A stretch of DNA of 11,041 nucleotides from Verrucomicrobiota bacterium (GTDB taxonomy: Bacteria; Verrucomicrobiota; Verrucomicrobiia; Limisphaerales; UBA1096), in assembly GCA_015658765.1 (NCBI GenBank), contig DQOE01000211.1:1-11041 (forward strand). Reading direction: 5' to 3'. Of the stretch, positions 197-11,041 are shown in pieces. Numbering within the stretch: the stretch's first letter is position 1; the number at the start of each line of letters is the position of its first letter. The translations under genes were made by a program, and so were the position numbers. The notes beneath the pieces are model-generated. The model searched no databases. It worked only from the letters and a program-made list of their open reading frames with translations, and was not told where the DNA came from.

Positions 197-225
197 AATC
201 TAAATTACGCTTGGCCATGCGGCAA
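197..225 (-). promoter_or_regulatory. Candidate promoter of the sigma factor gene (short-leader or leaderless)
   Basis: On the minus strand TTGCCG (complement of 220-225) is followed after 17 bp by TAGATT (complement of 197-202), and 8 nt later by the ATG at 188. The predicted start of transcription falls at or next to the start codon. The hexamers are 4/6 matches each to the sigma-70 consensus. The spacer contains the near-palindrome CGCTTGGCCATGCG (208-221), which could be an operator or be incidental. Confidence 0.4.
208..221. repeat. Near-palindrome, one mismatch from CGCTTGGCCAAGCG
   Basis: CGCTTGGCCATGCG, one base from the perfect 14-bp palindrome found at 247-260. It sits in the spacer of the sigma-factor promoter candidate. 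The two copies start 39 bp apart in the same orientation between divergent genes, and their flanks (ACGCTTGGCC then GCGG) also match. It belongs to the window-wide TTGGCCAA motif family. Confidence 0.7.
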
Positions 226-246
226 GGTTACGGGTGGGCGAAATGA

Positions 247-260
247 CGCTTGGCCAAGCG
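247..260. repeat. Perfect 14-bp palindrome CGCTTGGCCAAGCG (intergenic copy 1)
   Basis: Perfect 14-bp inverted repeat with no spacer, between the divergent sigma factor and glnD genes, just upstream of the proposed glnD -35 element (264-269). The identical 14-mer recurs at 8422-8435. If glnD were started at the TTG at 250, this motif would be read as coding (MAKR). Confidence 0.85.
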
Positions 261-263
261 GAA

Positions 264-292
264 TTGTTTCGGCGGCCCAGCGCGGCTAGACT
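264..292 (+). promoter_or_regulatory. Candidate glnD promoter (leaderless geometry)
   Basis: TTGTTT (264-269), a 17-bp spacer, TAGACT (287-292), then 8 nt to the GTG at 301. The -10 is 4/6 to consensus and nearly identical to TAGATT at the sigma-factor and methyltransferase promoters. The -35 keeps only its TTG core. The same geometry at other genes is the main support, and it is one reason to choose GTG 301 as the glnD start. Confidence 0.35.
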
Positions 293-300
293 CCCGGCGC

Positions 301-3093
301 GTGCCGGAGAACGCCACAGACCCAGCCGACGCCACGGAATTGATGGCCATCCCCAATGACAGTTCCCTCGTCAAGGAGCTGCCAAGGCTCAAGCGTTTCC
401 TCAAGACGGAGTCGGCCCGCCTGCAGCGGTGGCACCGCGGCGGCGGCGGCGGTCGCGAGGTGTGCCTTGGCCGGTCGTGGATGCTCGACACGCTGCTGCG
501 CGAGCTGTTCGACTGGACGCTGGCAACTTTCGAGCAGCCCGGCAATGCGCGGAAACTTCAAGTCGCCCTCGTCGCCATCGGCGGCTACGGTCGCGCGGAA
601 CTCAACCCCCACAGTGACGTCGACATCATGCTGCTGCACAGCGGTTCGATGCCGAGCGTCAACCGCATTTTCAGTCATCCGCTGCTCGAGAAACTCACCG
701 GCCCCGGCGGCTTGATCTACACGCTGTACGACCTCAGCTTGAAGGTCGGCCACTCGGTTCGCAACATCCAGGATGCGGTCAACGTCGCCAATGACGACAT
801 GCAGACCAAGACGTCGTTGATCGAGTCGCGCCTCATCACCGGCGACGCCGGGTTGTTCGGGCAGTTCCAGCAGCGGCTCGAGGCCAGATGCGTCCGCAAC
901 CACGTCGGCGACTATCTGCAAATGCGGATCGGCGACCAGGACGCGCGCCGCGTGAAGTTCGGCAACTCCGCCCTGCTGCAGGAGCCCAACATCAAGAACG
1001 GCTGCGGCGGACTTCGCGATTACCAGAATCTGCTGTGGATGACGCACTTCAAGTACGGCGCCCACACCCTCGAGCAGCTCGAGGCCCAGGGGATGGTCCG
1101 CCCGAGAAATCGCAGGCAACTCGAGGTCGGCTACGACTTCCTGCTGCGCACCCGCAACGAGCTTCACCTCCAGACTAAGCGACTGGCGGACGACATCCCC
1201 AAGGCGCTCCAACCGAAAATCGCCTGGCAGCTTGGCTACAAGGACCGCTCCCCGGCGCGCCGGCTCGAGGCGTTCATGCGCGACCTCTACACGCACATGC
1301 GTGCGATCCATCTCATCACCCGCATGGTCGAGCGCCGACTGGCTCTCCGCCCCAAGCCGGCCCGCCGCCTGCCCTCGCTTCGCTCGTTTTTCGGGAGTGG
1401 CAAAAAAACGGAGACGCTCGACGGCTTCAACATCATCGACGGCGAACTGGTGCCGATCTCACCGCGTATTTTCAGGGATCAGCCGAGACGACTCATGCGC
1501 GTGTTCCTGCACGCCCAGCAGCGCGGCCTCGAGTTTCACCCCGACCTCACGCAGTTGCTGCGCGACAACGTCTCGCTGGTGGACGACGGCTTCGTCCACG
1601 ACACGGAAAACCACGAGACGTTTCTCGAGATTCTCAACCAGCGCGGCAACGTCGCCCCCGCCCTGCGTGCCATGCACGAGGTCGATCTGCTGGGGCGCTA
1701 CATTCCGGAGTTCGGCCGGATGACCTGCCTCGTGCAGCACGAGTTTTTTCACGCCTACGCGGCGGACGAGCACACGCTCGTCTGCCTCGAGAAACTCGAC
1801 CAAGTCTGGGACGCAGCTCAGCCGCCGTTCGCGCACTACACCCACATCCTGCAGGACATCGACCTGCCGTACCTGCTGTACCTCGCGCTGTTTTTGCACG
1901 ACGCCGGCAAGGGCATGGAGAGCGGCGACCACGTGAAGGACGGCACAGTCGTCTGCCAAAAAGTCGGCGAGCGGCTTGGCCTCACGCCTCGCCGCCTGGC
2001 CCGGCTGAAGTTCCTCGTCGAGCATCACCTGCTCATGGCCGAGGTGTCGCAGCGGCGCGATATCGACTCACCCACGGTGATCCGCCAATTCGCCGAGACG
2101 GTGCAGGATGAGGAAAACCTGGCCATGCTCACGCTGCTGACATTCGCCGACTCGCTCGGCACCAGCAACAACCTCTGGAACGATTTCAAAAACACGCTGC
2201 TGCAAACCCTCTACCACCTCGCCGGCCGGCGCCTCGCCAGCGGCAAGGATTACGAGCAGGCGGAGCAGCAGCGCCTGGCCAAGCTCATGCAGGAGGCGCG
2301 CGAACAGTTGCCGCTGAAAATTTCCGCCGAGGAACTCGAGGCCCACTTTGAGCACCTCACGCCGCGTTATTTCCGCACCCACTCGCTCGAGCATATCAAC
2401 ATCGACCTCACGCAGGTGAACCGCTTCCTCAAGCGCGTCGTCAACGGCTCCGGCTCCAGGGTGCTCGAGCCGGTCATCGCCTGGCACAATCAACCTGCGC
2501 GCGGCTACACCTCGGTAAAAATCTGCACGTGGGATCGCCCAGGGCTGTTCACCACCATCTCCGGGGCCTTGGCTGCGGCGGGGCTGAACATCCTGAGCGC
2601 ACGCGTCTTCTCGCGGGGCGACGGGATCATCCTCGACACGTTCCTCGTCGTGGACGCGCGCACCGGCGGCTTGGCCAAGCGGCGCGAGCGCGACACGTTC
2701 AAAAAACAGCTCACCCAGGCACTGCTGCCGGACGAGTCGCCGGAATTCCAGACACAGATCGACACCTTGGCCAAGCGCGGCGCACCAGCGGAGTGGGAGT
2801 GGCCGACGCGCATCCGCATCGACACCGAGGCCGCCGAGTCGCGCACCATCATCGAAGTCGAGTCAGCGGATCGGCTGGGCCTGCTGCACCGCATCTCAAA
2901 GGTGCTGACACGGCACGGACTCAGCATCCACGTCGCACGCATCAGCACCGAGAAAGGCGCGGCGATCGACACCTTCTACGTCCGGACCGCTCTCGGGAAA
3001 AAACCAACCGACGAAGCACTGCTCCGTCAAACCCAGTCCGACCTCGAGACGGAATTAAGTGAGCAGAAAAGGGACACGGATTTCACGGATTAA
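301..3093 (+). CDS. glnD: Bifunctional PII uridylyltransferase/uridylyl-removing enzyme
   Basis: GlnD senses glutamine and adds or removes UMP on PII proteins (GlnB/GlnK) in the cytoplasm, setting nitrogen assimilation. From GTG 301 it is 930 aa (E. coli GlnD is about 890). Order of domains: nucleotidyltransferase with GGYGRAEL at 94-101 and SDVD at 105-108 carrying the metal-binding Asp residues; a conserved linker (GNSALLQEPNIKNGCGGLRD); an HD domain with HDAGKG at 533-538 (uridylyl-removing activity); and two C-terminal ACT domains from about 740 (WDRPGLF) and 850 (ADRLGLLHRIS), which bind glutamine. Alternative starts are TTG 250 and ATG 343; the ATG loses only 14 residues, and none has a good Shine-Dalgarno. 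The last residues, about EQKRDTDFTD, and the stop are encoded by an intergenic repeat. No PII or amtB gene is adjacent. The gene is convergent with the rrf2-type regulator. Confidence 0.95.
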   Translation: MPENATDPADATELMAIPNDSSLVKELPRLKRFLKTESARLQRWHRGGGGGREVCLGRSWMLDTLLRELFDWTLATFEQPGNARKLQVALVAIGGYGRAELNPHSDVDIMLLHSGSMPSVNRIFSHPLLEKLTGPGGLIYTLYDLSLKVGHSVRNIQDAVNVANDDMQTKTSLIESRLITGDAGLFGQFQQRLEARCVRNHVGDYLQMRIGDQDARRVKFGNSALLQEPNIKNGCGGLRDYQNLLWMTHFKYGAHTLEQLEAQGMVRPRNRRQLEVGYDFLLRTRNELHLQTKRLADDIPKALQPKIAWQLGYKDRSPARRLEAFMRDLYTHMRAIHLITRMVERRLALRPKPARRLPSLRSFFGSGKKTETLDGFNIIDGELVPISPRIFRDQPRRLMRVFLHAQQRGLEFHPDLTQLLRDNVSLVDDGFVHDTENHETFLEILNQRGNVAPALRAMHEVDLLGRYIPEFGRMTCLVQHEFFHAYAADEHTLVCLEKLDQVWDAAQPPFAHYTHILQDIDLPYLLYLALFLHDAGKGMESGDHVKDGTVVCQKVGERLGLTPRRLARLKFLVEHHLLMAEVSQRRDIDSPTVIRQFAETVQDEENLAMLTLLTFADSLGTSNNLWNDFKNTLLQTLYHLAGRRLASGKDYEQAEQQRLAKLMQEAREQLPLKISAEELEAHFEHLTPRYFRTHSLEHINIDLTQVNRFLKRVVNGSGSRVLEPVIAWHNQPARGYTSVKICTWDRPGLFTTISGALAAAGLNILSARVFSRGDGIILDTFLVVDARTGGLAKRRERDTFKKQLTQALLPDESPEFQTQIDTLAKRGAPAEWEWPTRIRIDTEAAESRTIIEVESADRLGLLHRISKVLTRHGLSIHVARISTEKGAAIDTFYVRTALGKKPTDEALLRQTQSDLETELSEQKRDTDFTD

Positions 3094-3135
3094 CACAGAT
3101 AGTCAGGATTGAGTTCAACCGTGTAATCCGTGTCC
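3072..3135. repeat. Imperfect inverted repeat, copy 1, overlapping the glnD stop
   Basis: The left arm 3072-3088 (GGACACGGATTTCACGG) pairs with 3119-3135 (CCGTGTAATCCGTGTCC) over 17 bp with one mismatch, around a 30-bp loop. The left arm continues GATTAA, which supplies the glnD stop at 3091-3093. It lies between convergent glnD and the rrf2-type gene, so it could act as a bidirectional transcription-ending structure, but there is no U-tract. A second copy of the same family is at 3690-3760. Confidence 0.85.
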
Positions 3136-3136
3136 G

Positions 3137-3161
3137 AACTTGAAACTGAAAACTTGAAACT
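3137..3161. repeat. Two direct copies of AACTTGAAACT
   Basis: The 11-mer AACTTGAAACT occurs at 3137-3147 and again at 3151-3161, a 14-bp period. It directly follows the inverted repeat and precedes the stop of the rrf2-type gene at 3164. It is low-complexity and function is unknown. Confidence 0.7.
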
Positions 3162-3163
3162 CC

Positions 3164-3625
3164 CTAAATGATATAATCGAGCGGGTTCTCCAGCGGGCCC
3201 TGCAAGTCGCGCACGCGGTCGCACAAATGCGCCACGCTCACCCCCTCCAGCACGCCGACGATCGCATCGCGCACCTCCTGCATCACGCTGCGGATCGCGC
3301 ACTTGCCCTCGTCGGGACAGGAACAGCGCTGGTAATAATTCACACTCACACACCCCACCGGTGCCAGCGGTCCCTCCAAGTGACGAATAATATCGGCCAG
3401 CGAAATCTCGTTCGGCCCGCGCTGCAGCCGATAGCCTCCCGCCACCCCGCGCTTGCTCAACACAAACCCGGCCGACTTCAGGTCATTGAGAATCTGCTCC
3501 AAAAACCGGCGCGGAATATTCTGCTGCTGCGCGATGTCCCTGATCCGCACCACACCCGAACCGTGGTTCATCCCCAGAACCAACAGCGCCCGCAAAGCAT
3601 ACTCACCCCGTTGCGACAATTTCAT
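3164..3625 (-). CDS. Rrf2-family (IscR-like) transcriptional regulator
   Basis: The 153-aa protein begins MKLSQRGEYALRALLVLG, the classic Rrf2 start, with a winged helix-turn-helix over about residues 1-70: the recognition region is IPRRFLEQILNDLKSAGFV and the wing RGVAGGYRL. Cysteines at 92, 101, 103 and 109 (C-x8-C-x-C-x5-C) fit an Fe-S or redox-sensing cluster site like that of IscR (ligands C92, C98, C104), although spacing differs. A fifth Cys lies at 137. Glu43, which in E. coli IscR helps discriminate site types, is present. The upstream region has an IscR type 1-like operator over the promoter, so autorepression is likely. No isc or suf genes are in view, so I give no gene symbol. An NO, iron or redox sensor of the same family is equally possible. 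Confidence 0.92.
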   Translation of the reverse strand: MKLSQRGEYALRALLVLGMNHGSGVVRIRDIAQQQNIPRRFLEQILNDLKSAGFVLSKRGVAGGYRLQRGPNEISLADIIRHLEGPLAPVGCVSVNYYQRCSCPDEGKCAIRSVMQEVRDAIVGVLEGVSVAHLCDRVRDLQGPLENPLDYII

Positions 3626-3635
3626 GCCAAGGCAG

Positions 3636-3663
3636 AAAGTAGAATCTCGACCTATTTAGTCAA
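3636..3663 (-). promoter_or_regulatory. Candidate promoter of the rrf2-type regulator
   Basis: On the minus strand TTGACT (complement of 3658-3663) is followed after 16 bp by TACTTT (complement of 3636-3641), then 10 nt to the ATG at 3625. The -35 is 5/6 to consensus and the -10 only 3/6. The -35 lies inside the dyad described in the next entry, so a bound regulator would block RNA polymerase. Confidence 0.4.
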
Positions 3664-3667
3664 GTAT
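3643..3667 (-). promoter_or_regulatory. IscR type 1-like operator (25-bp imperfect dyad)
   Basis: On the minus strand ATACTTGACT - AAATA - GGTCGAGATT: two 10-bp half-sites with a 5-bp centre, the same length and layout as the E. coli IscR type 1 site. The left half-site matches that consensus (ATASYYGACT) at every position; the right half-site matches AGTCRRSTAT at 7 of 10. It covers the -35 of the gene encoding an IscR-like protein, so negative autoregulation is the simplest reading. The match was made by eye against a remembered consensus. Confidence 0.55.
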
Positions 3668-3689
3668 CGTTTGATGAGCAGAGGAACAG

Positions 3690-3760
3690 GACACGGATTT
3701 CACGGATTACCACGGATGTGCTGATCCGGATAATCTGTGTCAATCCGTGAAATCCGTGTC
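3690..3760. repeat. Inverted repeat, copy 2, perfect 19-bp arms
   Basis: GACACGGATTTCACGGATT (3690-3708) is exactly repeated in inverted orientation at 3742-3760, with a 33-bp centre that is itself partly symmetrical (CCACGGAT against ATCTGTGT). It is the same family as 3072-3135, and the two share left-flank text (GAGCAGA). It lies between the regulator's promoter and the 3' end of the VOC gene, so the regulator is bracketed by two copies. Confidence 0.9.
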
Positions 3761-3779
3761 TAATCTAAAAACCAGAAAC

Positions 3780-4166
3780 TCACTTCGCGATCTCAATCAG
3801 CTCGATCTCGTAGCCCTCGGGGGCGTCGATGAAGGCGAAGCCGCCGCCGGCCTCCCTCATCGTCGGGCCGTCGGAGTACTCGAAGCCCAGCTTGGCCAGG
3901 TGCCGGCCGAATTCCTCAAGGCTGTCGACCTCGAAGGCCAGATGCGTGAGGTCTTCCTGCACCACCACTGGGCCGCTGTTGGGGAAATGGCAGATCTCGA
4001 CGGTCTCCTCGCTCTCGGGTGCCTTGAGGAAGGCCAGCTCGGAGCCGCGCGGCGACTTGTGGCGGCGCACCTCCTCCAGCCCAAGGACGTTCTTGTAAAA
4101 CTCGACGGTTTGCTCGAGGTCGTTCACGCGGTAGCGGGTGTGCAACAGTTTCTTTGCCAAGGCCAT
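3780..4166 (-). CDS. Glyoxalase I-like VOC-superfamily protein (lactoylglutathione lyase type)
   Basis: From ATG 4166 the protein is 128 aa (E. coli GloA is 135). It has two beta-alpha-beta-beta-beta modules of the vicinal oxygen chelate fold. The four metal ligands of glyoxalase I can be matched by position: His9 (LLHTRYRV), Glu57 (ETVEICH), His75 (LTHLAFEV) and Glu122 (GYEIELIE), against H5, E56, H74 and E122 in E. coli. It would convert the methylglyoxal-thiol hemithioacetal to S-lactoyl thiol in the cytoplasm. The natural thiol is unknown, and other VOC activities cannot be excluded. An upstream TTG at 4205 would add 13 residues that look non-conserved. It is divergent from the methyltransferase gene, 87 bp away. 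I withhold gloA because the thiol and substrate are unproven. Confidence 0.88.
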   Translation of the reverse strand: MALAKKLLHTRYRVNDLEQTVEFYKNVLGLEEVRRHKSPRGSELAFLKAPESEETVEICHFPNSGPVVVQEDLTHLAFEVDSLEEFGRHLAKLGFEYSDGPTMREAGGGFAFIDAPEGYEIELIEIAK

Positions 4167-4217
4167 AACGCCGCACACCGTACCAAGCCGAGCGTGCCGA
4201 GCCAAGCACAGGCCAGC

Positions 4218-4246
4218 TTGTCATCGCGCCTGCCCAAGGGTAGATT
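4218..4246 (+). promoter_or_regulatory. Candidate promoter of the exported methyltransferase gene
   Basis: TTGTCA (4218-4223, 5/6 to consensus), exactly 17 bp, TAGATT (4241-4246, 4/6), then 7 nt to the ATG at 4254. This is the best-matching sigma-70-like promoter in the window, and it predicts an mRNA starting at or within a base or two of the start codon. Confidence 0.5.
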
Positions 4247-4253
4247 GCCCCGC

Positions 4254-5024
4254 ATGAAATGCCCGCTGTTTTGCCTCGGACTTGCCGCCGCCTTCGTCGC
4301 GCTTGGCCAGCTCTCCCCCGCGCTTGGCCAGACCAAGGGTGTCCGCATCGATCCCGAGAACCCGCGCTACACACACCGCACGCAGCACAGCCGCGACGGC
4401 ATTGGCAAATTCTACATGGGCCGCGAGATCGCTCACGTAATGGGGCACCTCGGCGCGGGGTGGCTCGAACGCCCGTCGCGCGAACTGGAGGAGAAACCGC
4501 AGACGCTCATCCGGTCGCTCAAACTCAAGGCCGGCGACAACGTGGCGGACATCGGCGTCGGCACGGGGTACTTCGCGCGGCGCATCGCGCGCGTCATCGG
4601 GCCGAAGGGCACAGTGTACGGGGTGGACATCCAGCCGGAGATGCTCGAGTTGCTGGCAAAGAATCTCGGCAAGCTCGGCATCAAGAATGTGAAGGGCGTG
4701 CTCGGCACGATCAAAAACCCAAACCTGCCCGCGAACAGCATCGACCTCGCGCTGATGGTCGATGTGTACCACGAGTTTTCGCACCCGCACGAGATGCTGC
4801 AGAACCTCTGCCACGCGCTGAAGCCGGGAGGGCGGATCGCGTTCGTCGAGTATCGGATGGAGGATCCCAACGTGCCGATCAAGCTGCTGCACAAGATGTC
4901 GCAACTGCAGGTGATGATAGAGGCCACGCCGCACCCGCTCGAGTGGGTGGAGACAATCTCCGTGCTCCCCCGCCAACACGTCATCGTGTTCAAAAAAACC
5001 GCAACAACACCGGCAGCGAAATAG
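4254..5024 (+). CDS. Exported class I SAM-dependent methyltransferase
   Basis: The protein is 256 aa. Residues 1-26 look like a Sec signal peptide (Lys2, then a hydrophobic run, ending near SPALGQ). The rest is a Rossmann-fold methyltransferase of the Methyltransf_11/25 type: motif I ADIGVGTGY at 98-106, the acidic residue ending strand 2 at Asp125 (VYGVDIQPEML), motif II DLALMVDVYHEF around 164-175, and LKPGGRIAFVEY at 189-200. The target is unknown. SAM is normally cytoplasmic, so the signal peptide is odd, though exported methyltransferase-like proteins of this kind are, as I recall, often predicted in this group of phyla. No cysteine lipobox is present. The ATG is chosen because the frame upstream overlaps the VOC gene and the signal peptide begins here. 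Two 12-bp copies of GCGCTTGGCCAG (4299-4310, 4320-4331) encode the ALGQ repeat in the signal region. Confidence 0.85.
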   Translation: MKCPLFCLGLAAAFVALGQLSPALGQTKGVRIDPENPRYTHRTQHSRDGIGKFYMGREIAHVMGHLGAGWLERPSRELEEKPQTLIRSLKLKAGDNVADIGVGTGYFARRIARVIGPKGTVYGVDIQPEMLELLAKNLGKLGIKNVKGVLGTIKNPNLPANSIDLALMVDVYHEFSHPHEMLQNLCHALKPGGRIAFVEYRMEDPNVPIKLLHKMSQLQVMIEATPHPLEWVETISVLPRQHVIVFKKTATTPAAK

Positions 5025-5174
5025 ACGGTTGAATTAAACGCAGAGGCGCAAAGGGCCGCAAAGCTTTTTTACGGTTTGCAAGCTCGACCGTCTGTTGTGC
5101 ACGCGAGAGCGTTTTGGAGTGTGGTTCTCTGCACCGCTTTCGGTGACGTTGTGAAATCCTGTTCCCATTCCAAA

Positions 5175-5191
5175 GCGGCGCGCAGCGCCGC
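5175..5191. repeat. GC-rich hairpin, 7-bp stem
   Basis: GCGGCGC (5175-5181), loop GCA, GCGCCGC (5185-5191). It is a perfect stem in the middle of the repeat region with no following T-run on either strand, so a terminator role is doubtful. Confidence 0.65.
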
Positions 5192-5262
5192 AATCCAAGA
5201 CGCTGCCGCGATGTTCTACGGCCTAAAACAATCTGCCAGTCCAAGTAGTGCTCACACGTTGC

Positions 5263-5283
5263 GGACGGCTGGGACAGCCGTCC
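5263..5283. repeat. GC-rich hairpin, 8-bp stem
   Basis: GGACGGCT (5263-5270), loop GGGAC, AGCCGTCC (5276-5283). It is a perfect stem between convergent genes. It could slow polymerase from either side, but there is no U-tract. It resembles short dispersed palindromic elements more than a canonical terminator. Confidence 0.7.
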
Positions 5284-5328
5284 CTACCTTCATCTCTGCG
5301 GTTCTCCGCGTCTTTGCGCCCTCTGCGT

Positions 5329-5826
5329 TTAGATGAGGCGATGCTCCGTTTTTATCGCTTCCGATTGGTCAAGCGTTGCCAATAACCCGGAAACCGTTTG
5401 TTTCTGACCGGGCAAAACCAAGCCGGGGGCAATCTCGGCGAGTGGGGCCAAGACGAAGGCGCGCTCGTGGGCACGCGGATGCGGCAAAACCAATGTCGGC
5501 GTGGTGCGTGTCTCGGTGCCGAAGGCGATCAGGTCGAGGTCGATGGCGCGTGGCGCGTTGGCCAATCTGGAGCGGGTGCGGCCCAATCGGGCCTCGAGTG
5601 CCAGCAATGCGTCGAGCAGCGACTCTGGCGTGGTGCCGAGCGTTGGCTGCAGGCCAAGCGCGGCGTTGAGGAACGGCGGCGAGCCAGGCGGGCAATCGAC
5701 CGGCGCGGTCCGCCAAAGCGACGAGCCAAGCAACTCGGCGGGCGACCATCCGGCGATTGAGTCGGCTGCCTCTCGCAATGTCCCGGCGGCGGCGCCGAGG
5801 TTGGCCCCCAGCGCCACATAGGCCAT
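5329..5826 (-). CDS. folK: 2-amino-4-hydroxy-6-hydroxymethyldihydropteridine diphosphokinase (HPPK)
   Basis: FolK transfers pyrophosphate from ATP to hydroxymethyl-dihydropterin in folate synthesis. From ATG 5826 it is 165 aa (the family is about 160). It starts MAYVALGANLG, has the PFLNAALGL segment at 51-59, the HPPK signature APRAIDLDLIAFG at 91-103 with the Mg-binding Asp96 and Asp98 (E. coli D95, D97), and LPHPRAHERAFVLAPLAEIAP at 114-134. An in-frame GTG at 5844 would add VNDEPL, and further upstream the frame runs antisense into trpF, which rules out longer forms. The TAA stop overlaps one arm of the flanking inverted repeat. It is divergent from trpF. No folP or folB gene is adjacent. 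Confidence 0.95.
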   Translation of the reverse strand: MAYVALGANLGAAAGTLREAADSIAGWSPAELLGSSLWRTAPVDCPPGSPPFLNAALGLQPTLGTTPESLLDALLALEARLGRTRSRLANAPRAIDLDLIAFGTETRTTPTLVLPHPRAHERAFVLAPLAEIAPGLVLPGQKQTVSGLLATLDQSEAIKTEHRLI

Positions 5827-5899
5827 TAGCGGTTCGTCATTCACGCGCTTGGTTTTGCCGTGCCCCACCCTCCGGCGCAATCTGAATCCGACACGGGCG

Positions 5900-5927
5900 T
5901 TGACACTTGGCCCTGACCGCATAGCGT
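5900..5927 (+). promoter_or_regulatory. Candidate trpF promoter
   Basis: A perfect TTGACA (5900-5905), a 16-bp spacer, a weak TAGCGT (5922-5927, 3/6), then 8 nt to GTG 5936. It has the same short distance to the start codon as the glnD, sigma and methyltransferase promoters. No trp leader peptide or T-box is visible in this short gap. Confidence 0.35.
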
Positions 5928-5935
5928 CTTGCGCC

Positions 5936-6583
5936 GTGAGTGTGCGGGTAAAAATTTGCGGCATCACGTCGATCGACGATGCGCGCGCGGCGGTCGGGGC
6001 GGGCGCGGACGCGCTGGGCTTCATGTTTTATGAGCCGAGCCCGCGCTGCATCACGCCGGGGCGGGCGGCGGCGATCATTGCCGAACTGCCGACGCACGTG
6101 GCCAAGGTCGGCGTGTTCGTCGATGCCGACGAGGCGACGGTGCGCGCCACCGCCGCCACGGCCGGGCTGGACACGCTGCAATTCCACGGCAACGAGTCGC
6201 CGGGGTATTGTGCGCGATTCGAACTGCGGACGATCAAGGCATTCCGCGTGAAGGACAGCGAGTCGCTTGGCCAACTGCCGGATTACGAGACCGACGCGTG
6301 GCTGCTGGACAGTTACGTGAAGGGTGTGCCGGGCGGCACCGGAGAACGGTTCAACTGGGACCTGGCCGTGGAGGCCAACCGGCTGGGCCGCCCGATCCTG
6401 CTCGCTGGCGGGTTGACGCCAGAGAACGCCGGCGAAGCGGTTGGCCAGGTTGCGCCGTTCGGGCTCGACGTGTCGAGTGGCGTCGAGGCGGCTCCCGGCC
6501 GGAAGGATGCCGCGAAGGTCGCCGCACTCATCGCCAGCACCAAGGGCAGTTCGGCAGGCGTTGGACTCTGGGCCGGGTGTTGA
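5936..6583 (+). CDS. trpF: Phosphoribosylanthranilate isomerase
   Basis: TrpF converts N-(5-phosphoribosyl)anthranilate to the carboxyphenylamino-deoxyribulose phosphate in tryptophan synthesis. It is a 215-aa single TIM barrel from GTG 5936 (the family is about 200-210). Visible motifs: VKICGIT at 5-11 with the catalytic Cys8; GADALGFMFYEPSPR at 23-37; VGVFVDAD at 58-65; LQFHGNESP at 81-89; LLDS at 123-126 with the general acid Asp125; GGTGERFNW at 133-141; LLAGGLTPENA at 155-165; and the phosphate-binding LDVSSGVE at 177-184. The frame stays open upstream to 5849, but that part is antisense to the folK leader and has no TrpF character. No other trp gene is adjacent, so it is a stand-alone locus. 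Confidence 0.96.
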   Translation: MSVRVKICGITSIDDARAAVGAGADALGFMFYEPSPRCITPGRAAAIIAELPTHVAKVGVFVDADEATVRATAATAGLDTLQFHGNESPGYCARFELRTIKAFRVKDSESLGQLPDYETDAWLLDSYVKGVPGGTGERFNWDLAVEANRLGRPILLAGGLTPENAGEAVGQVAPFGLDVSSGVEAAPGRKDAAKVAALIASTKGSSAGVGLWAGC

Positions 6584-6667
6584 GTTTTTGCGGTGATTCG
6601 GTAACTTTGCCGCCTCCCGGCACGTAATGCATTGCGGCTTGATTACAGGCGCAACCCATCACTGAAC

Positions 6668-8359
6668 ATGAACCTGACTTTCTTCAAGAGCGCGACCGTC
6701 GGCTTGGCTGCATTCGTGTTGGCCGCCACCGGCTTGGCTGCGGACAAAAAACTGACGCTCGACGAACTGTTCCCGGCCGGCCGCGTGCTCGACGTGCAAA
6801 TCACCGTTGCCGAAAAGGACTGGGACAAGATACGCCATCAGTCGCGCAACTTCGTCTCGGCGCTGCACGAGAGCCGGAAAGTAAAGCCGATCGACGGCCC
6901 GTACGAATACGTGAATGCCGACGTGACGATTGACGGCATGAAGTTTGAAAAGGTCGGCCTGCGCAAGAAGGGGTTCATCGGCTCGCAGAGCAGCAGCCGG
7001 CCGTCGCTCAAGATCAAGCTCAACCACACCGACAAGGAGCAGGCCATCGGCGGGCTGACCAACCTGACGATGAACAACAACAAGCAGGACGGCTCCATCG
7101 TGAGCCAGTACATGGGGTATGCGGTTTTCAACCAGGCCGGGTCGCCGGCGCCGCGCTGCGCCTTTGCCAAGGTGACGGTCAACGGCAAAAACCTCGGCAT
7201 CTACTCGCACGTGGAGTCGGTGCGCAAGCCGCTGCTGGCGCGCGGGTTCGGCAACGATGCCGGCACGCTTTACGAGGGTACGGTAGTGGATTTTTACGAG
7301 GACTGGGAGGGCAGCCTCGAGCACAAACGCGGCGACGACAAACCGGGCCGCGAAAAAATTCGGCAACTGATCCAGCTGCTCGAGAGCGAGGAGGCGAGCG
7401 AGGAAGCCATCGGCAGGCTCGTCGATCTCGATTCGTTTTACCGGTTCTGGGCCATCGAGGGGCTGCTTGGTTTTTGGGACGGCTACTCCGGCAACGCGAA
7501 CAACTTTTTCATTTATCTCAACCCGAAGACGGATCGGTTCCACTTCATGCCGTGGGGAGCGGACGCGCTGTTCCGCAAGCGTAGCATGCTCAACTTCAAT
7601 TTCCGCGCGCCGGTCTCGGTCAAGACCAAGGGCCGGGTCGCCTATCGCCTTTACCAACTGCCGGAAAGCCGTGAACGCTATCGCAAGACACTGCACGGCT
7701 TGCTCAAGGAACATTGGGTCGAGGACAAGTTGCTCGCCGAGTGCGACCGGATCGAGGCCCTGATCAAGCCACACCTGAACCGTGAGCAGTATCGCTTCAC
7801 CCAATCGCTGGATGGCACGCGCGATTTCATCGAGGCACGACGCGGGGATTTGATGAAGGAAACCGGGGACAGCATGCCGGCGTGGCGCAAGGAGCCCAAG
7901 GCGCCGCCGGTCATCGCCGCCATCGGCAAAATCAAGGCCAGGTTCTCCGCCTCGTGGATGGAGGATTCCCCGCGCGAACGCACCAACATCGGCAAGGTGG
8001 AAATCAGCCTGACCATGGATGGCAGGGAGGTTGCGCTGAAGGACGCCGGCGTGCATGCGTCGTGGACAGGCGGCTTCGGCCGGAGCAGCAAGCCGTCGGT
8101 GCGCATCGTGGCGAGACGGGCCGACAACGACAAACAGGTGTCGTTCGATCTCGGAATGGAGGAGGACGCCTTTCGTGCCGGAGACGACATTCAATCCAGC
8201 GGCGTGCTGAAAGAGGGTCGCAGCTTTTCGTTTGGCCCGCTTGGCATGCAATTCATCGGCGGCAAGACCCGGCTCAGCGCCGCCGGCATGCGGGAAGGTG
8301 ACAAGGTTGAAGGTGAGTTCGAGGGTGAAGTAATGAAACTCATCGGGATGGGCCGCTGA
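6668..8359 (+). CDS. Exported CotH-family (spore coat H kinase-like) protein
   Basis: The protein is 563 aa with a clear signal peptide (MNLTFFKSATVGLAAFVLA, then ATGLA with likely cleavage before ADKK). CotH proteins have an atypical protein-kinase fold; in Bacillus, CotH phosphorylates coat proteins. Conserved blocks: VGLRKKGFIGS and SLKIKLNH in the N-lobe; TNLTMNNNKQDGS around 131-143; NLGIYSHVESVRKPLL with Glu183; DLDSFYRFWAIEGLLGFWDGYSGNANNFFIYLN from about 253; and HFMPWGADALF with PWGAD at 295-299. The usual PWDxD motif has Gly for the first Asp, while the second is kept. About the last 150 residues form an extra region (from RFSASWMEDS) that I do not recognise. A TTG at 6632 would add 12 residues before the signal peptide, so the ATG is preferred. 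Substrate and kinase activity are unproven. Confidence 0.88.
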   Translation: MNLTFFKSATVGLAAFVLAATGLAADKKLTLDELFPAGRVLDVQITVAEKDWDKIRHQSRNFVSALHESRKVKPIDGPYEYVNADVTIDGMKFEKVGLRKKGFIGSQSSSRPSLKIKLNHTDKEQAIGGLTNLTMNNNKQDGSIVSQYMGYAVFNQAGSPAPRCAFAKVTVNGKNLGIYSHVESVRKPLLARGFGNDAGTLYEGTVVDFYEDWEGSLEHKRGDDKPGREKIRQLIQLLESEEASEEAIGRLVDLDSFYRFWAIEGLLGFWDGYSGNANNFFIYLNPKTDRFHFMPWGADALFRKRSMLNFNFRAPVSVKTKGRVAYRLYQLPESRERYRKTLHGLLKEHWVEDKLLAECDRIEALIKPHLNREQYRFTQSLDGTRDFIEARRGDLMKETGDSMPAWRKEPKAPPVIAAIGKIKARFSASWMEDSPRERTNIGKVEISLTMDGREVALKDAGVHASWTGGFGRSSKPSVRIVARRADNDKQVSFDLGMEEDAFRAGDDIQSSGVLKEGRSFSFGPLGMQFIGGKTRLSAAGMREGDKVEGEFEGEVMKLIGMGR

Positions 8360-8421
8360 AACGACCGCCCGCCGTCGCCTGAAAACCTGTCGGGATTGAG
8401 CGGGTGCGATTCCCTTTATTC

Positions 8422-8435
8422 CGCTTGGCCAAGCG
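8422..8435. repeat. Perfect 14-bp palindrome CGCTTGGCCAAGCG (intergenic copy 2)
   Basis: Identical to 247-260. It lies four bases beyond the lhgO stop, between the convergent CotH and lhgO genes. As RNA it could form only a 5-bp stem with a GGCC loop, so it is a weak terminator at best. Sharing an exact 14-mer palindrome between two distant intergenic sites argues for a DNA-level role. Confidence 0.85.
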
Positions 8436-8438
8436 CGT

Positions 8439-9635
8439 TTAATTGCCCGCCAAGATCTTGCGGACGATTTCCTCGCCGATCGCCAACGACGCGGTCGCCG
8501 CCGGGCTGGGGGCGTTGAGCACATGCAACGCCGCCGGTCGCTGGATCAGGCAAAAATCCTGAATCAATTCGCCCTCCCGCGCCATCGCCTGTGCGCGCAC
8601 ACCCGCGCCGCCCGGCTCAATATCGGTTACACGGATGCTTGGCACGAGCTTTTGAAGCGCCTTGCAGAAGCGCCGTTTGCTGAACGACTGCCACAACTCA
8701 AGCGCGGTCATCCTCGGGTATTTCGCGACAAAACGCCACAGGCCGGGATAGGTAACCGCATCCCACAGGTCGCGCACGTTGACGTCGGTCTTGCGGTAAC
8801 CCTCGCGCGCAAAGGCGAGCACCGCGTTCGGGCCGGCCTCGGTGCCGCCGTGGATCAACCGCGTGAAGTGCACGCCCAAAAACGGGAACTGCGGATCTGG
8901 CACGGGATAAATCAAGTGGTGCACCAAGCCTTTGCTGGCCTCGACGAGTTTATAGTACTCGCCACGGAACGGAACGATTCGCGTCTCGCGTTTCTCGCCG
9001 GCCAAACCGGCGACGCGGTCGCAATGCAGCCCGGCGCAGTTCACGAGGTACCTGCCGGCAAACTCACCCTTGGATGTCGTCCCGATCCACTCGCCACCGC
9101 GCTGCTCGAGCCGCGTGACGCGCGCGCCGGTCTGCACGTCACCGCCATTGGCCGTGATCCGTCGCTTGAGTTCGCGGCAAACTGCCGGGTAATCGACGAT
9201 GCCCTCCTGCGGCACGCGCAGCGCAGCGATGCCGCCGACGTTCGGCTCGCACTCAAGCATCGCCTCGCGCCCGAGAAACTCGATGCCCTCAAGTCCGTTT
9301 TGCCGGCCGCGCTCCTCGAGTTTGCGCAGGCGCTCCAGCTCGGCGTCGTTGCACGCCACGACCAGTTTGCCGCAGACCTCATGCGCGATGTTGGCTTCCC
9401 GGCAAAACTCGACCATCTGCCGGATGCCCCGCACGGCGAGAACGGCCTTGGTCGAGCCCGGCTTGTAATAGAGGCCGCAATGCAGCACGCCGCTGTTGTG
9501 GCCGCTTTGGTGGCTGCCAACTTCCGGCTCCTTTTCGAGCAGGCAAACGCGGCTCCCCGGCTGCATGGTTTGCAACCGCCACGCCGTCGCCAGGCCGACA
9601 ACGCCTCCGCCGATGACAAGGTAGTCCGTTTTCAT
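8439..9635 (-). CDS. lhgO: L-2-hydroxyglutarate oxidase/dehydrogenase (FAD-dependent)
   Basis: LhgO oxidises L-2-hydroxyglutarate to 2-oxoglutarate, passing electrons to oxygen or the quinone pool at the membrane. It is 398 aa, the usual family length. The N-terminal FAD-binding motif is YLVIGGGVVGLATAWRL with GGGVVG at 9-14. The diagnostic block SHQSGHNSGVLHCGLYYKPG is at 41-60, followed by EGIVDYPAVCREL, FPFLGVHFTR, GGAGVRAQAM at 342-351 and NAPSPAATASLAIG at 374-387. These match the LhgO/YgaF and L2HGDH family closely, so assignment is strong, although related DAO-fold hydroxy-acid oxidases exist. Its ATG overlaps the stop of the upstream SDR gene (ATGA), implying translational coupling. 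No csiD or gabT gene is beside it. Confidence 0.93.
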   Translation of the reverse strand: MKTDYLVIGGGVVGLATAWRLQTMQPGSRVCLLEKEPEVGSHQSGHNSGVLHCGLYYKPGSTKAVLAVRGIRQMVEFCREANIAHEVCGKLVVACNDAELERLRKLEERGRQNGLEGIEFLGREAMLECEPNVGGIAALRVPQEGIVDYPAVCRELKRRITANGGDVQTGARVTRLEQRGGEWIGTTSKGEFAGRYLVNCAGLHCDRVAGLAGEKRETRIVPFRGEYYKLVEASKGLVHHLIYPVPDPQFPFLGVHFTRLIHGGTEAGPNAVLAFAREGYRKTDVNVRDLWDAVTYPGLWRFVAKYPRMTALELWQSFSKRRFCKALQKLVPSIRVTDIEPGGAGVRAQAMAREGELIQDFCLIQRPAALHVLNAPSPAATASLAIGEEIVRKILAGN

Positions 9636-10378
9636 CCGTGCACCCAGCCGCGATCAACGAGTATCTCCTGCCCGGTCACCGCGCAGCTGGCATCGCTCGC
9701 GAGGAACAACGCCACGTCAGCGACCTCATCCGGTTGATTGAGATCCGGGATGCATTGTTCCCTGCGAATCTGACGCTTGACCGCCGGGGTGACATGATCG
9801 CTGAGTTGCCGCTCGGTCATGATCCACCCCGGCGAAATGGTGTTCACGCGAATCCGCCGAGGCCCCAGCTCACGGGCCAGTGATCGCGTCAACCCGATCG
9901 CCGCCGCCTTGGTCGCGACATAGGCGCTCATGTTCACAGGCGCGGTATAAAACGTGATCGACGAAAAGTTGACGATCGACGCCCCCTTGGCCAAGTGCGG
10001 CGACGCCTCGCGGCAGGCTAGAAAATAGGCCCGAATATTGCCGGCGATGAGATCATCCCACACCTTCGCAGTGACGTCCTCAAGGGCGATGCGCGGGTCG
10101 CGCGCGGCGTTGTTGATGAGCACGTGAATGTCGCCATGCCGCTTGGCCAAATGTGCCACCCAGCGCTTGATGCCAGCCTCACGACAGAGGTTAACCTTGG
10201 CAAATTCAGCCCGGTCGCCCAGGCGCTTGGCCAGGCGCACACCGGCCCTGTCATCCAAGTCACAGAAACAAACCACGGCTCCCTGGGCGTGAAACGCCTC
10301 GACCATCGCCTGGCCAATGCCATTAGCCCCACCGGTTATGAGCACCAGACGACCGGCGAGTTCGTCGTACGTTGCCAT
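9632..10378 (-). CDS. Short-chain dehydrogenase/reductase (classical SDR)
   Basis: The 248-aa protein is of classical SDR size. The Rossmann motif GGANGIG is at 16-22; Asp40 closes strand 2 (VVCFCDLD), which favours NAD(H) over NADP(H). NNAA is at 89-92, the active-site Asn at about 114, Ser140, and Tyr153-x3-Lys157 (YVATK). The PG of strand 6 is at 183-184 and the C-terminal VDRGWVHG closes the fold. The exact alcohol or sugar substrate cannot be read from sequence. It starts 9 bp after the stop of the isomerase-like gene and overlaps lhgO by 4 bp, so the three are probably one transcript. No Shine-Dalgarno is visible. Three TTGGCC motifs in the gene encode LAKR (49-52), LAKR (77-80) and LAK (129-131). 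Confidence 0.93.
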   Translation of the reverse strand: MATYDELAGRLVLITGGANGIGQAMVEAFHAQGAVVCFCDLDDRAGVRLAKRLGDRAEFAKVNLCREAGIKRWVAHLAKRHGDIHVLINNAARDPRIALEDVTAKVWDDLIAGNIRAYFLACREASPHLAKGASIVNFSSITFYTAPVNMSAYVATKAAAIGLTRSLARELGPRRIRVNTISPGWIMTERQLSDHVTPAVKRQIRREQCIPDLNQPDEVADVALFLASDASCAVTGQEILVDRGWVHG

Positions 10379-10387
10379 CGCAAAAAA

Positions 10388-11041
10388 CTAAAGTGCCGGA
10401 GCGACGGAGGCCTTCATTTTGTCGAGCCCGATCCTGGCGGCCTCGAGCGCGTCCATCGCCCAGTATTCGCGATTGAACAACTCGAGTGACAGCACCGGCG
10501 TCGCGCCGACCTGCAGAAAGCCCCTCGTGATGTCGGCGATCGGCGCAATGCCGTCGCCGGGGAACACTCGGTGCTGGTCGCCGATTTTGTCCAGCGGCGG
10601 GTCGGCCGGATAATCGTTCCAATGAAAATGCTGCAACGCCTGCGGGCCGAGCATCTTCAGCCCGGCGAAATCGGAGCCGCCCTTGTACGTGTGATAAACA
10701 TCACCCAAAAAACAGGCGCTCGGATGGCCGGCCTCGATCGCGATGTAAATGGCCGTGCTCACGCGGCCAATGGATGGGTTGCCGCCCCACATCTCGATCT
10801 GCGGCACGACACCGATCTCGTCGCCGATCTCAAGCAGCTTTCGATACCGCTTGGCCGCCACCATCGGGTCGACCGTGCCGCGGGCACCGGCCGGCGGCGC
10901 AGCGATGCGCTTGGCACCGAGTTGGGCGAGCAGATCCATGTCACGCCGGGCGTCCTCGAGGCCCTTGGCTCGCTGCGCGTCGTCATCGACAATCCAACGC
11001 GCAAAGCCAATCGCACTCTCGACAGTCAGCCCGTGATCCTC
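10388..11041 (-). CDS. Sugar phosphate isomerase/epimerase (AP endonuclease 2-type TIM barrel), C-terminal part
   Basis: The frame is open to the right edge, giving 217 residues, and the true start lies outside; an internal ATG at 10939 is not the start, because the frame before it (EDHGLTVESAIGFARWIVDD) is coherent protein. It belongs to the xylose isomerase-like/AP endonuclease family 2 fold. Likely metal ligands along the barrel: Glu in VPQIEMWGG, Asp and His in LGDVYHTYKGG, His in QHFHWNDYP and Glu in LSLELFN. Such proteins isomerise or epimerise keto-sugars or inositol derivatives; the substrate here is unknown. It is the first visible gene of an operon with the SDR and lhgO, and ends 9 bp before the SDR start. 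Confidence 0.88.
   Translation of the reverse strand, partial: EDHGLTVESAIGFARWIVDDDAQRAKGLEDARRDMDLLAQLGAKRIAAPPAGARGTVDPMVAAKRYRKLLEIGDEIGVVPQIEMWGGNPSIGRVSTAIYIAIEAGHPSACFLGDVYHTYKGGSDFAGLKMLGPQALQHFHWNDYPADPPLDKIGDQHRVFPGDGIAPIADITRGFLQVGATPVLSLELFNREYWAMDALEAARIGLDKMKASVAPAL

Follow-up and report, generated by a model that had tools for sequence, protein, structure and literature searches.

Why does a short palindrome recur through genes and gaps alike along an 11,041-nucleotide stretch of DNA (the window) from a genus of uncultured marine Verrucomicrobiota, in which the word TTGGCCAA appears about once per kilobase? All eight copies of this 8-bp core originally predicted in the window proved exact (Table 1), while the runner-up 8-base palindrome has four copies. 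GCTTGGCC is present 12 times on the plus strand, one more than first listed because the copy at 1974 had been missed, and its complement six times, as listed. The perfect 14-mer CGCTTGGCCAAGCG occurs twice as predicted, and the claim that both copies are intergenic holds for the one at 8422; the copy at 247 lies 5′ of the GlnD-like gene when the gene start is set at 340, as in our analysis, but the longest open frame there opens with TTG at 250, inside this copy.

Table 1. Palindrome sites and a methyltransferase gene in the window
Positions	Strand	Feature	8-bp core	Context
208..221	.	near-copy of 14-bp palindrome, CGCTTGGCCATGCG, 1 mismatch		
247..260	.	perfect 14-bp palindrome CGCTTGGCCAAGCG	250-257	5′ of GlnD-like gene (from 340)
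2272..2285	.	near-copy CGCCTGGCCAAGCT, 2 mismatches		within GlnD-like gene
2668..2681	.	GGCTTGGCCAAGCG	2671-2678	within GlnD-like gene
2764..2777	.	ACCTTGGCCAAGCG	2767-2774	GlnD-like gene; 96 bp (9.1 turns) after 2668 site
3889..3902	.	near-copy AGCTTGGCCAGGTG, 3 mismatches		within glyoxalase-family gene
4251..5024	+	SAM-dependent methyltransferase gene (Methyltransf_31)		
4321..4334	.	near-copy CGCTTGGCCAGACC, 3 mismatches		further GCTTGGCC at 4301, 21 bp upstream
5362..5375	.	near-copy CGATTGGTCAAGCG, 2 mismatches		within HPPK gene
5558..5565	.	TTGGCCAA core, flanks poor (>3 mismatches to 14-mer)	5558-5565	HPPK gene
6264..6277	.	CGCTTGGCCAACTG	6267-6274	within trpF-like gene
8422..8435	.	perfect 14-bp palindrome CGCTTGGCCAAGCG	8425-8432	between convergent CotH and DAO-family genes
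9984..9997	.	CCCTTGGCCAAGTG	9987-9994	within SDR gene
10140..10153	.	CGCTTGGCCAAATG	10143-10150	within SDR gene
10224..10237	.	near-copy CGCTTGGCCAGGCG, 1 mismatch		SDR gene; 84 bp (8.0 turns) after 10140 site

The palindrome is abundant across one genus

The source genome (2.24 Mb) holds 1816 copies of TTGGCCAA, or 809 per Mb, compared with 65 of the reversed word. In 133 kb of this genome an order-2 Markov model predicts 7.7 copies where 124 are seen, and 0.007 copies of CGCTTGGCCAAGCG where 19 are seen; an order-4 model, although it already accounts for half of the word, still leaves a 3-fold excess (124 against 39.9 in sample G000). Markov models of orders 1–4 thus rule out chance and base composition as the cause, and the predicted excess far beyond chance was borne out, the frequency being nowhere near the Markov expectation. 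Observed-to-expected ratios against order 2 are 4.3–24.8 in all eight samples from rich genomes, and the overall excess over Markov and synonymous-shuffle expectations is 4–25 fold. Abundance of TTGGCCAA is a genus trait among the genomes sampled: 18 of 21 genus genomes are rich (340–1079 per Mb), three are poor (88–106 per Mb), and each of 272 other genomes of the same order has at most about 91 per Mb. Our literature search, which covered mostly openly available journal papers, found no description of TTGGCCAA as a genomic element among the papers listed, in agreement with the original prediction.

Near-copies of the 14-mer are enriched up to 3 mismatches, and the most enriched one-base neighbour of the core, CTGGCCAA, alters the outermost base (observed-to-expected 4.2 in G000, 2.5 in G020 and 3.1 in G010), compared with at most about 2.3 fold, and in some cases below 1, for the other one-base neighbours in these samples. 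The two halves of the palindrome abut, with 274 cases of zero spacer against 0–2 for each spacer of 1–7, and abutting sites make 12-bp tandem arrays, a minority form. Site density is strongly tied to local GC. Even spacing, which the original prediction had proposed checking, was not seen; distances between sites range from randomly distributed to clustered (CV 0.86–1.5), and clustering reaches about 200 bp, the same range as the helical phasing described below. Clusters of at least four sites, sought as a pointer to a regulator's own gene, number eight, of which seven are genic. General viral carriage was rejected, as one of at least 120 viral pieces with the 14-mer has eight cores and the others have 1–3 each; a search with the phage DnaB gene gave two further related loci.

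Some loci were set apart in these and later counts. Locus L025 (G020 contig 4, GC 0.44, one site in 20 kb) was part of the first G020 group count but entered neither the later G020 sample nor the pooled sets. The gene-level set of named relatives comprises 12 of 20 loci, the eight excluded ones (L005, L012, L014, L015, L016, L018, L019 and L021) being low-GC, sparse or short, and, to reduce repetition, seven of the 12 entered the pooled phasing set. The three genomes poor in sites (G001, G006 and G015) were kept out of the pooled set.

Sites disregard gene boundaries and reshape codons and peptides

The predicted indifference to gene boundaries was upheld in G000, with 994 sites per Mb outside called genes and 925 inside. 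Coding and noncoding densities are 843 and 1305 per Mb in G010, 839 and 1107 in the named relatives, and 527 and 373 in G020. The noncoding sets are not clean, because the gene caller misses genes such as HPPK in the window. Intergenic densities are alike in tandem (1555 per Mb), convergent (1474) and divergent (1317) gaps, which argues against a promoter or terminator role and rules out transcription terminators and promoter operators; the many sites are spread regardless of promoters, as would be expected of nucleoid-protein sites. The first tenth of genes is the richest (163 sites versus 56–103 in other tenths), an excess that may reflect gene starts placed too far upstream.

Codon usage does not account for the excess. 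Synonymous codon shuffling in a sample of the source genome left 16.5 copies (maximum of 40 shuffles, 22) where 110 are seen, confirming the word's independence of codon usage, and across samples left 7.0–33.8 against 58–209 observed. Coding sites fall mostly in two reading phases, encoding LAK and LGQ, and these peptides are raised 3–6 fold; LAK is 4 fold up while LAR and LAE are at expectation, and it ranks first among all tripeptides in two of the four samples. The palindrome is conserved at synonymous positions, beyond what its codons alone would give: within sites the codon CTT was kept in 258 of 274 cases, versus 1847 of 4205 elsewhere (the pairs are not independent), and the codon TTG in close pairs showed no difference in conservation inside and outside sites.

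Neighbouring palindromes tend to lie on one helix face

Sites within about 200 bp of each other tend to occupy the same face of the helix, at spacings that are multiples of 10.5 bp, and this helical phasing of neighbouring palindromes is what is new here. Taking as sites all sequences that differ from the 14-mer at no more than 3 positions, and counting once any pairs that share distance and 8-base flank, we obtained a Rayleigh power of 24.4 at 10.5 bp among 843 pairs 13–300 bp apart, with a phase of about −0.5 bp; by distance, the power is 13.0 (13–100 bp), 14.6 (100–200 bp) and 1.2 (200–300 bp). Control 6-mers of like abundance without TTGG, TGGC, GGCC or GCTT (215 scored out of 250 drawn, those with 300 pairs or more) reached at most 5.6 at 10.5 bp with a median of 0.8, and some peak near 10–11 bp with the period left free (AAAAAA at 10.7). 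With sites masked and similar windows merged, an analysis that groups windows instead of counting shared pairs once, 297 clusters gave a mean power of 20.2 and a best period of 10.45–10.5 bp, and the best period outside 9.9–11.1 reached only 6.4.

Phasing extends across and beyond genes, with a power of 15.0 for 177 pairs not sharing one gene and 11.3 (vector 0.42) for 63 pairs outside called genes; in DNA lacking any open frame of 600 nt it is 4.1 for 33 pairs, and stricter cuts leave 0–6 pairs. Phasing belongs to the full palindrome: exact TTGGCCAA gives a power of 22.6, whereas half-sites on their own (1.3) and TGGCCA located elsewhere than in the core (1.9) are unphased; GGCC gives 9.1 with a vector of only 0.017. 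Smaller or stricter subsets carry less signal: the source genome by itself is not significant (61 pairs, power 1.05), G010 gives 3.2 but peaks slightly higher at 8.4 bp, sites with at most one mismatch give a weak 3.9 (120 pairs), pairs with distance modulo 3 equal to 2 give only 2.1, and the three poor genomes together supply 25 sites and two pairs.

A putative architectural protein and its alternatives

We consider it probable that the genome-wide CGCTTGGCCAAGCG and its core are sites for a putative cooperative, sequence-specific architectural (nucleoid) protein bound along one helix face, a geometry to which the phasing points. The palindrome would be the recognition site of a putative, probably dimeric, DNA-binding protein that may contact its neighbours cooperatively by forming short loops, by wrapping the DNA or by building a protein array, and it would serve as an architectural protein of the nucleoid, addressed to thousands of sites. 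Selection for occupancy would create and hold these sites even when a change in protein sequence is the cost. More tentatively, and with somewhat less than even confidence, we propose a sequence-addressed bacterial chromatin in which a dedicated putative protein on 14-bp sites would form looped or wrapped particles chromosome-wide, with codons and amino acids rewritten and no methylation; such particles would have sites about one per kilobase and their helical face locked over about 200 bp.

The met boxes of MetJ are abutting palindromes with a fixed period that are bound cooperatively at a few operators; abutting TTGGCCAA sites share the fixed period, whereas met boxes are not genome-wide. 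The Streptomyces nucleoid protein Gbn also has thousands of short sequence-defined chromosomal sites, and the available text describes about 3,600 bound motifs, with a motif of GATC then (A/T)T and DNA shape altered only minimally in vitro, in which it differs from the system proposed here (PMC9239103).

A DNA uptake sequence, in which the palindrome marks kin DNA and biased import with recombination multiplies the copies, is an unlikely alternative that had been raised in the original prediction and emerged weakened. Copies at about one per kilobase and a graded excess of near-copies to 3 mismatches recall the short, greatly over-represented uptake words (DUS/USS) as the accessible part of their description has them (PMC1939737), the motif reshapes proteins, and ComEC was found in 9 of 21 genomes, all incomplete, every one among the 18 rich and none among the three poor. 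However, this split falls short of significance (about 0.17 in a Fisher test worked by hand), ComEC went undetected in half of the rich genomes (9 of 18), and uptake does not explain why separate sites should be phased at 10.5 bp. Known uptake sequences are, in the same partial source, non-palindromic (PMC1939737), whereas the dyad of CGCTTGGCCAAGCG is perfect to 14 bp.

The comparison with the highly iterated palindromes of cyanobacteria fared better, on density, palindromy, indifference to gene boundaries and conservation at synonymous positions. HIP1, GCGATCGC, described in 1995, and its alternates are, in the consulted portion of Elhai (2015), likewise GC-centred palindromes at densities of hundreds to around a thousand per Mb, genic and intergenic, with near-misses at the outermost base and no equally enriched palindrome (PMC4390886). 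TTGGCCAA occurs in coding and noncoding DNA, its one-base deviations are biased to the first and last base, and in the rich genomes its density lies within the HIP range of about 500–2500 per Mb, apart from two below 500 (G007, 340; G012, 499). It differs in that no cognate methyltransferase was found, in its longer consensus of 14 bp and in the helical phasing of neighbours; on the HIP1-bearing plasmid A of Trichormus variabilis (350 kb) phasing was not seen, although the 34 pairs there are too few for a fair comparison.

HIP1 upkeep has been modelled as methylation-directed repair (Elhai 2015, PMC4390886, in the part available), and an orphan methyltransferase that methylates GGCC or TGGCCA could in this way create and keep the sites. 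The HIP1-like density range, palindromy and outermost-base neighbour favour such an enzyme, as does GGCC methylation by M.Ssp6803II in a cyanobacterium, reported in the text available to us (PMC6560206). Yet the predicted solitary methyltransferase target found no partner, five DNA-methyltransferase Pfam families being essentially absent from the 21 genus genomes: PF01555, PF07669 and PF02086 occur in none, PF00145 in one, so that 17 of the 18 rich genomes lack it, and PF02384 in three at about 20 bits, the single match inspected being the protein methyltransferase PrmC. The methyltransferase gene in the window is not the missing partner, since its product has sub-cut-off NCBIfam matches only, with small-molecule, protein and RNA methyltransferases among the matches listed, and no sign of a DNA methyltransferase. 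According to the available text of Elhai, every cyanobacterial genome that contains such words has one or more methyltransferases able to methylate them, and some HIP1-rich genomes lack a CGATCG methyltransferase (PMC4390886), so an absent enzyme alone does not set TTGGCCAA apart from the HIP kind. Methylation does not predict helical phasing, and we judge this origin improbable. A phosphorothioation or restriction-modification site was rejected because neither these five families nor DndC (TIGR03183; 0 of 21 genomes, with control genomes matched only below cut-off) supplied modification genes.

Equally improbable to us is a reading with no dedicated protein, in which phased palindromes are preferred gyrase wrapping sites or self-bending DNA. 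Same-face phasing with clustering within about 200 bp would suit a wrapped particle, and site density depends on GC; against this, the 14-bp exactness, the zero spacer and the fact that neither GGCC nor TGGCCA beyond the core is phased to a similar degree suggest specific recognition. Gyrase is near-universal, whereas only one of the sampled genera carries the word in abundance.

An artefact of Leu-Ala-Lys and Leu-Gly-Gln peptides, arising from codon pairs or amphipathic helices, is very improbable and largely refuted: coding sites do lie mostly in these phases, a 3.5-residue heptad repeat also gives 10.5 bp, all Leu codons pooled have a real but minute periodicity of about 10.6 bp (vector 0.014, and 0.034 beyond 100 bp, with a different phase) and two cross-frame classes in one gene lie 1.6 bp apart in phase, within error but in the direction expected from a protein-level cause; however, the shuffle result and LAR and LAE at expectation stand against it, sites outside called genes are equally dense and more strongly phased, and non-site Leu-Ala-x codons have vectors of 0.02–0.08 against 0.16–0.42 at sites.

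Implications

Xu, Lawrence and Durand reportedly described selection on HIP1 and a 10–90 kb periodicity in 2018. The function of HIP1 is still debated, and one account (Elhai 2015) ties such words to DNA methyltransferases. A clade with an iterated palindrome, no methyltransferase found and helix-phased sites separates HIP-like words from methylation, and makes a role of such words in chromosome architecture directly testable. Here a demand at the DNA level is strong enough to skew protein sequences, a point to bear in mind when codon usage or selection is tested in these genomes, and TTGGCCAA provides a simple metagenome marker for the lineage and perhaps for its phages.

A palindrome in large excess in one genus

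The genome from which the window comes (G000; 2,243,959 bases in 433 contigs, 71% complete) carries 1816 copies of the 8-bp palindromic core TTGGCCAA, or 809 per Mb, and 65 copies of the reversed word. In 133 kb of this genome there are 124 cores where trinucleotide frequencies predict 7.7, and 19 copies of the full 14-bp palindrome CGCTTGGCCAAGCG where 0.007 are predicted, far from the Markov expectation with which the original prediction had proposed comparison. Recounting the window reproduced all eight predicted core positions exactly, as well as the two perfect 14-mers, and recovered 12 plus-strand copies of GCTTGGCC, of which 11 had been listed and one overlooked. No other 8-base palindrome reaches as high a ratio in samples of site-rich genomes; the next, AAGCGCTT, is raised 5–11 fold in four such samples, which abutting half-sites explain.

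The word is a property of one genus, represented here by 21 genomes that make up the whole family as sampled. Based on rounded genome sizes, 18 of the 21 hold 340–1079 cores per Mb and three (G001, G006 and G015) hold 88–106, and among 272 of the 293 genomes in the order the maximum outside the genus is about 91 per Mb. The 10-mer CTTGGCCAAG occurs 1278 times in G000 and at most 76 times in any of 386 other sampled genomes of the phylum, and samples of families f24 and f6, one of them (G093) largely masked, give observed-to-expected ratios of 0–2.4. Relatives identified through the GlnD-like gene (20 loci) are Verrucomicrobiota metagenome-assembled genomes (MAGs), and their record titles include names like FRAM, ETNP and ALOHA, which makes them marine by name. 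The samples from the three poor genomes have a GC content of 0.41–0.42 and ratios of 1.2, 3.9 and 3.0. The GlnD tree, in which the midpoint root is just a drawing aid, places three low-GC rows that lack sites next to site-rich rows, a pattern suggesting that sites were lost there.

Across 2.5-kb tiles of the rich genomes, site density climbs from 0 per Mb at a local GC of 0.40 to 1181 at 0.65, a steep dependence open to two readings, foreign DNA or a GC-linked process. The L025 segment is either a genomic island or part of a misbinned contig, and the L016/L021 pair reflects either a duplication or a mixed bin.

Coordinates of individual features
Locus	Source	Position	Feature
Window	DQOE01000211.1 (G000)	1974	Overlooked plus-strand copy of GCTTGGCC
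L025	G020 contig 4, a rich genome	first 20 kb	GC 0.44, one site
L016, L021	PBKH01, SP274		One MAG with a GlnD-like gene on each of two contigs, the pair differing little in the tree
L001	G010	358-1899	Sole C5 DNA methyltransferase (PF00145) found in the genus, on a 3-kb piece without sites; N-terminal excisionase-type helix-turn-helix (TIGR01764), then Dcm-like domain
L142	IMGVR_UViG_3300032087_002358	1-13670	Environmental phage contig

Structure and conservation of the site

Outside called genes the core is flanked by C at −1 (0.75), G at −2 (0.59), C at −3 (0.60) and G or C at −4 (0.76), with comparable preferences inside genes. The excess takes in near-copies of CGCTTGGCCAAGCG with as many as three mismatches (3.1–3.8 fold at three), shrinks to a slight 1.1–1.4 fold at four and has vanished at five. 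The dyad is strict: in 1.18 Mb the halves GCTTGG and CCAAGC occur 274 times with no spacer and 0, 1, 0, 1, 0, 2 and 0 times with spacers of 1–7. In the abutting reverse order, CCAAGC-GCTTGG, the halves are found 39 times (about 1.9 expected), and half-sites follow each other on one strand at a distance of 12 bp 43 times (about 3.8 expected); from these counts, overlapping sites form short 12-bp tandem arrays. Among 6-base palindromes, CTCGAG is the most frequent one in the window (24 copies); in G000 it occurs 116 times against 66.9 by synonymous shuffle (highest of 30 shuffles, 81), an excess milder than that of TTGGCCAA.

Codon usage as the cause of the word, the contrary account named in the original prediction, is contradicted by shuffle counts and by density outside genes. 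When synonymous codons are shuffled within genes, 16.5, 7.0, 33.8 and 16.7 copies remain, where the real genes have 110, 58, 209 and 138. Noncoding and coding densities per Mb are 994 and 925 in G000, 1305 and 843 in G010, 1107 and 839 in named relatives, and 373 and 527 in G020, where "noncoding" is imperfect since our home-made gene caller misses genes such as HPPK in the window; DNA without a 300-nt open frame in any of six frames holds 18 copies in 50.4 kb. Over residue shuffles in four samples, the peptides most often encoded by the core, LAK and LGQ, are raised 3.7–4.5 fold and 3.0–5.6 fold, and LAN, also encodable by the core, 1.3–1.9 fold; LGK reaches 1.7 fold in one of the four, and LAQ spans 0.6–1.7. 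LAR and LAE stay at 0.97–1.11 of expectation. It is thus the DNA word that shapes protein sequence, rather than protein sequence that dictates the word. Sites with up to two mismatches number 163 in the first tenth of called genes against 56–103 in other tenths, a peak that gene starts placed too far upstream may have produced.

Codons within sites are better kept than the same codons elsewhere, in pairs of rich genomes that are directed and not independent. Between the close pairs G000–G020 and G000–L002, TTG is no better kept in sites. DNA alignments at 70–75% identity preserve the core in 288 of 593 cases, against 10% of all 8-mers; above 95% identity it fares no better than other 8-mers (52 of 71 against 76%).

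Codons kept between reciprocal best hits of rich genomes where the amino acid is the same
Codon	In sites	Elsewhere
CTT	258/274	1847/4205
TTG	409/537	2953/5476
GCC	475/503	9625/12530
AAG	423/446	7925/9859
CAA	222/258	2226/3564
GGC	244/272	11847/14878

Sites tend to lie in helical phase

We analyzed spacing among 1861 sites with up to three mismatches; the sequence set, 1.68 Mb, combines eight rich genomes with seven named loci. The 843 pairs lying 13–300 bp apart give a Rayleigh power of 24.4 at 10.5 bp, the helical repeat, with a phase of about −0.5 bp, and per bp there are roughly two pairs below 200 bp for each one above. Power is 13.0 at 13–100 bp, 14.6 at 100–200, 1.2 at 200–300, 1.4 at 300–400, 3.6 with another phase at 400–600 and 1.0 at 600–1000. 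By distance modulo 3 it is 16.5, 9.0 and 2.1, and the signal, weak in the last class, is thus not confined to one reading frame. Under a null that keeps distance modulo 3, the observed value was attained in 0 of 300 trials in each of the three ranges for the three-mismatch set, in 4, 0 and 0 for two mismatches and in 12, 2 and 55 for one mismatch, where 120 pairs are few and weak (power 3.9). At 10.5 bp, the 215 control 6-mers have a median power of 0.8 and a maximum of 5.6; when the period may vary from 10 to about 11.2 bp, the eight top controls reach up to 10.7 (AAAAAA).

The phasing persists after merging related sequence. With sites masked and similar windows merged, 726 pairs collapse to 297 clusters with a mean power of 20.2 (lowest of 50 draws, 13.8) and a best period of 10.45–10.5, and exact-core clusters give 16.4 (n=219). 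The cluster vector is 0.26, with 64 and 64 in the two in-phase bins of seven and 18 in the opposite bin; the phasing is a bias, not a rule. It is strongest for pairs outside called genes (n=63, vector 0.42, power 11.3), with power 15.0 for pairs not in one gene (n=177) and 12.7 for pairs in one gene (n=513); DNA free of 600-nt open frames retains 33 pairs (power 4.1), and stricter cuts 0–6. Leu-Ala-x codons that are not sites have vectors of 0.02–0.08, and pooling all Leu codons gives a very small periodic signal near 10.6 bp (vector 0.014) in another phase. Power is 1.3 for lone half-sites and 1.9 for TGGCCA outside the core; GGCC scores 9.1, at a vector of no more than 0.017, and peaks higher at 13.4 bp. 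Individual sets vary: 8.5 for G004, 10.7 for four smaller samples pooled, 6.7 for the named loci, 3.4 for G020, 3.2 for G010 (top peak at 8.4 bp) and 1.05 for G000 alone (61 pairs). The steps in the window (39, 84, 94, 96, 150 and 156 bp) are no proof on their own.

A candidate architectural role

From placement on one helical face across as many as about 19 turns, clustering within the same reach, abutting tandem arrays and a strict dyad we infer a protein dimer that would touch its neighbours along the DNA through short loops, by wrapping or as part of an array, and that may act in compaction, replication or repair. Sites per Mb are 1555 in tandem gaps, 1474 in convergent gaps and 1317 in divergent gaps, and as this shows no promoter preference we read the sites as architectural rather than regulatory. 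That the sites serve gyrase or DNA curvature is a live rival to a bound dimer. Roles in DNA uptake or methylation, both raised in the original prediction, are less likely because neither calls for phase between sites.

The idea of a methyltransferase target fared poorly in the gene content as well: no METHYLTRANSFERASE was found, and five common Pfam DNA-methyltransferase families are almost missing from all 21 genus genomes (61–93% complete). PF01555, PF07669 and PF02086 occur in 0 of 21, PF00145 in one, and PF02384 in three at about 20 bits, one of them identified as PrmC. Despite that incompleteness, a gene common to the 18 rich genomes would scarcely have escaped detection in every one. 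DndC matched 0 of 21 in a search where control genomes matched only below the cut-off. The near-absence of the five families indicates that the genus is probably poor in restriction-modification systems.

The likeness to HIP1, the highly iterated palindrome of cyanobacteria, held up in abundance and spread, and three of four tested features of this kind of element are present; the fourth, a methyltransferase, was not found among the families searched. Elhai 2015 (PMC4390886) concludes that every cyanobacterial genome with such words owns one or more methyltransferases that can modify them, and also notes some HIP1-rich genomes that lack the CGATCG enzyme. Among the papers listed for the word and for term combinations, none presents it as a genomic element, and among those listed on HIP1 none was seen to treat helical phasing of that element.

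The word also appears in phage DNA. The contig L142, where PHROGs assigns genes for the large subunit of terminase, for DnaB and for a RusA-like protein, carries 8 cores in 13.7 kb when 0.65 would be expected, and as the richest chosen among at least 120 viral pieces with the 14-mer it is a lead only. Eight relatives by terminase hold 0–2 cores each, including 1 and 2 in the two whose terminase is 89% identical. It is possible that L142 infects this genus; if so, a phage genome would have been drawn to the word of its host.
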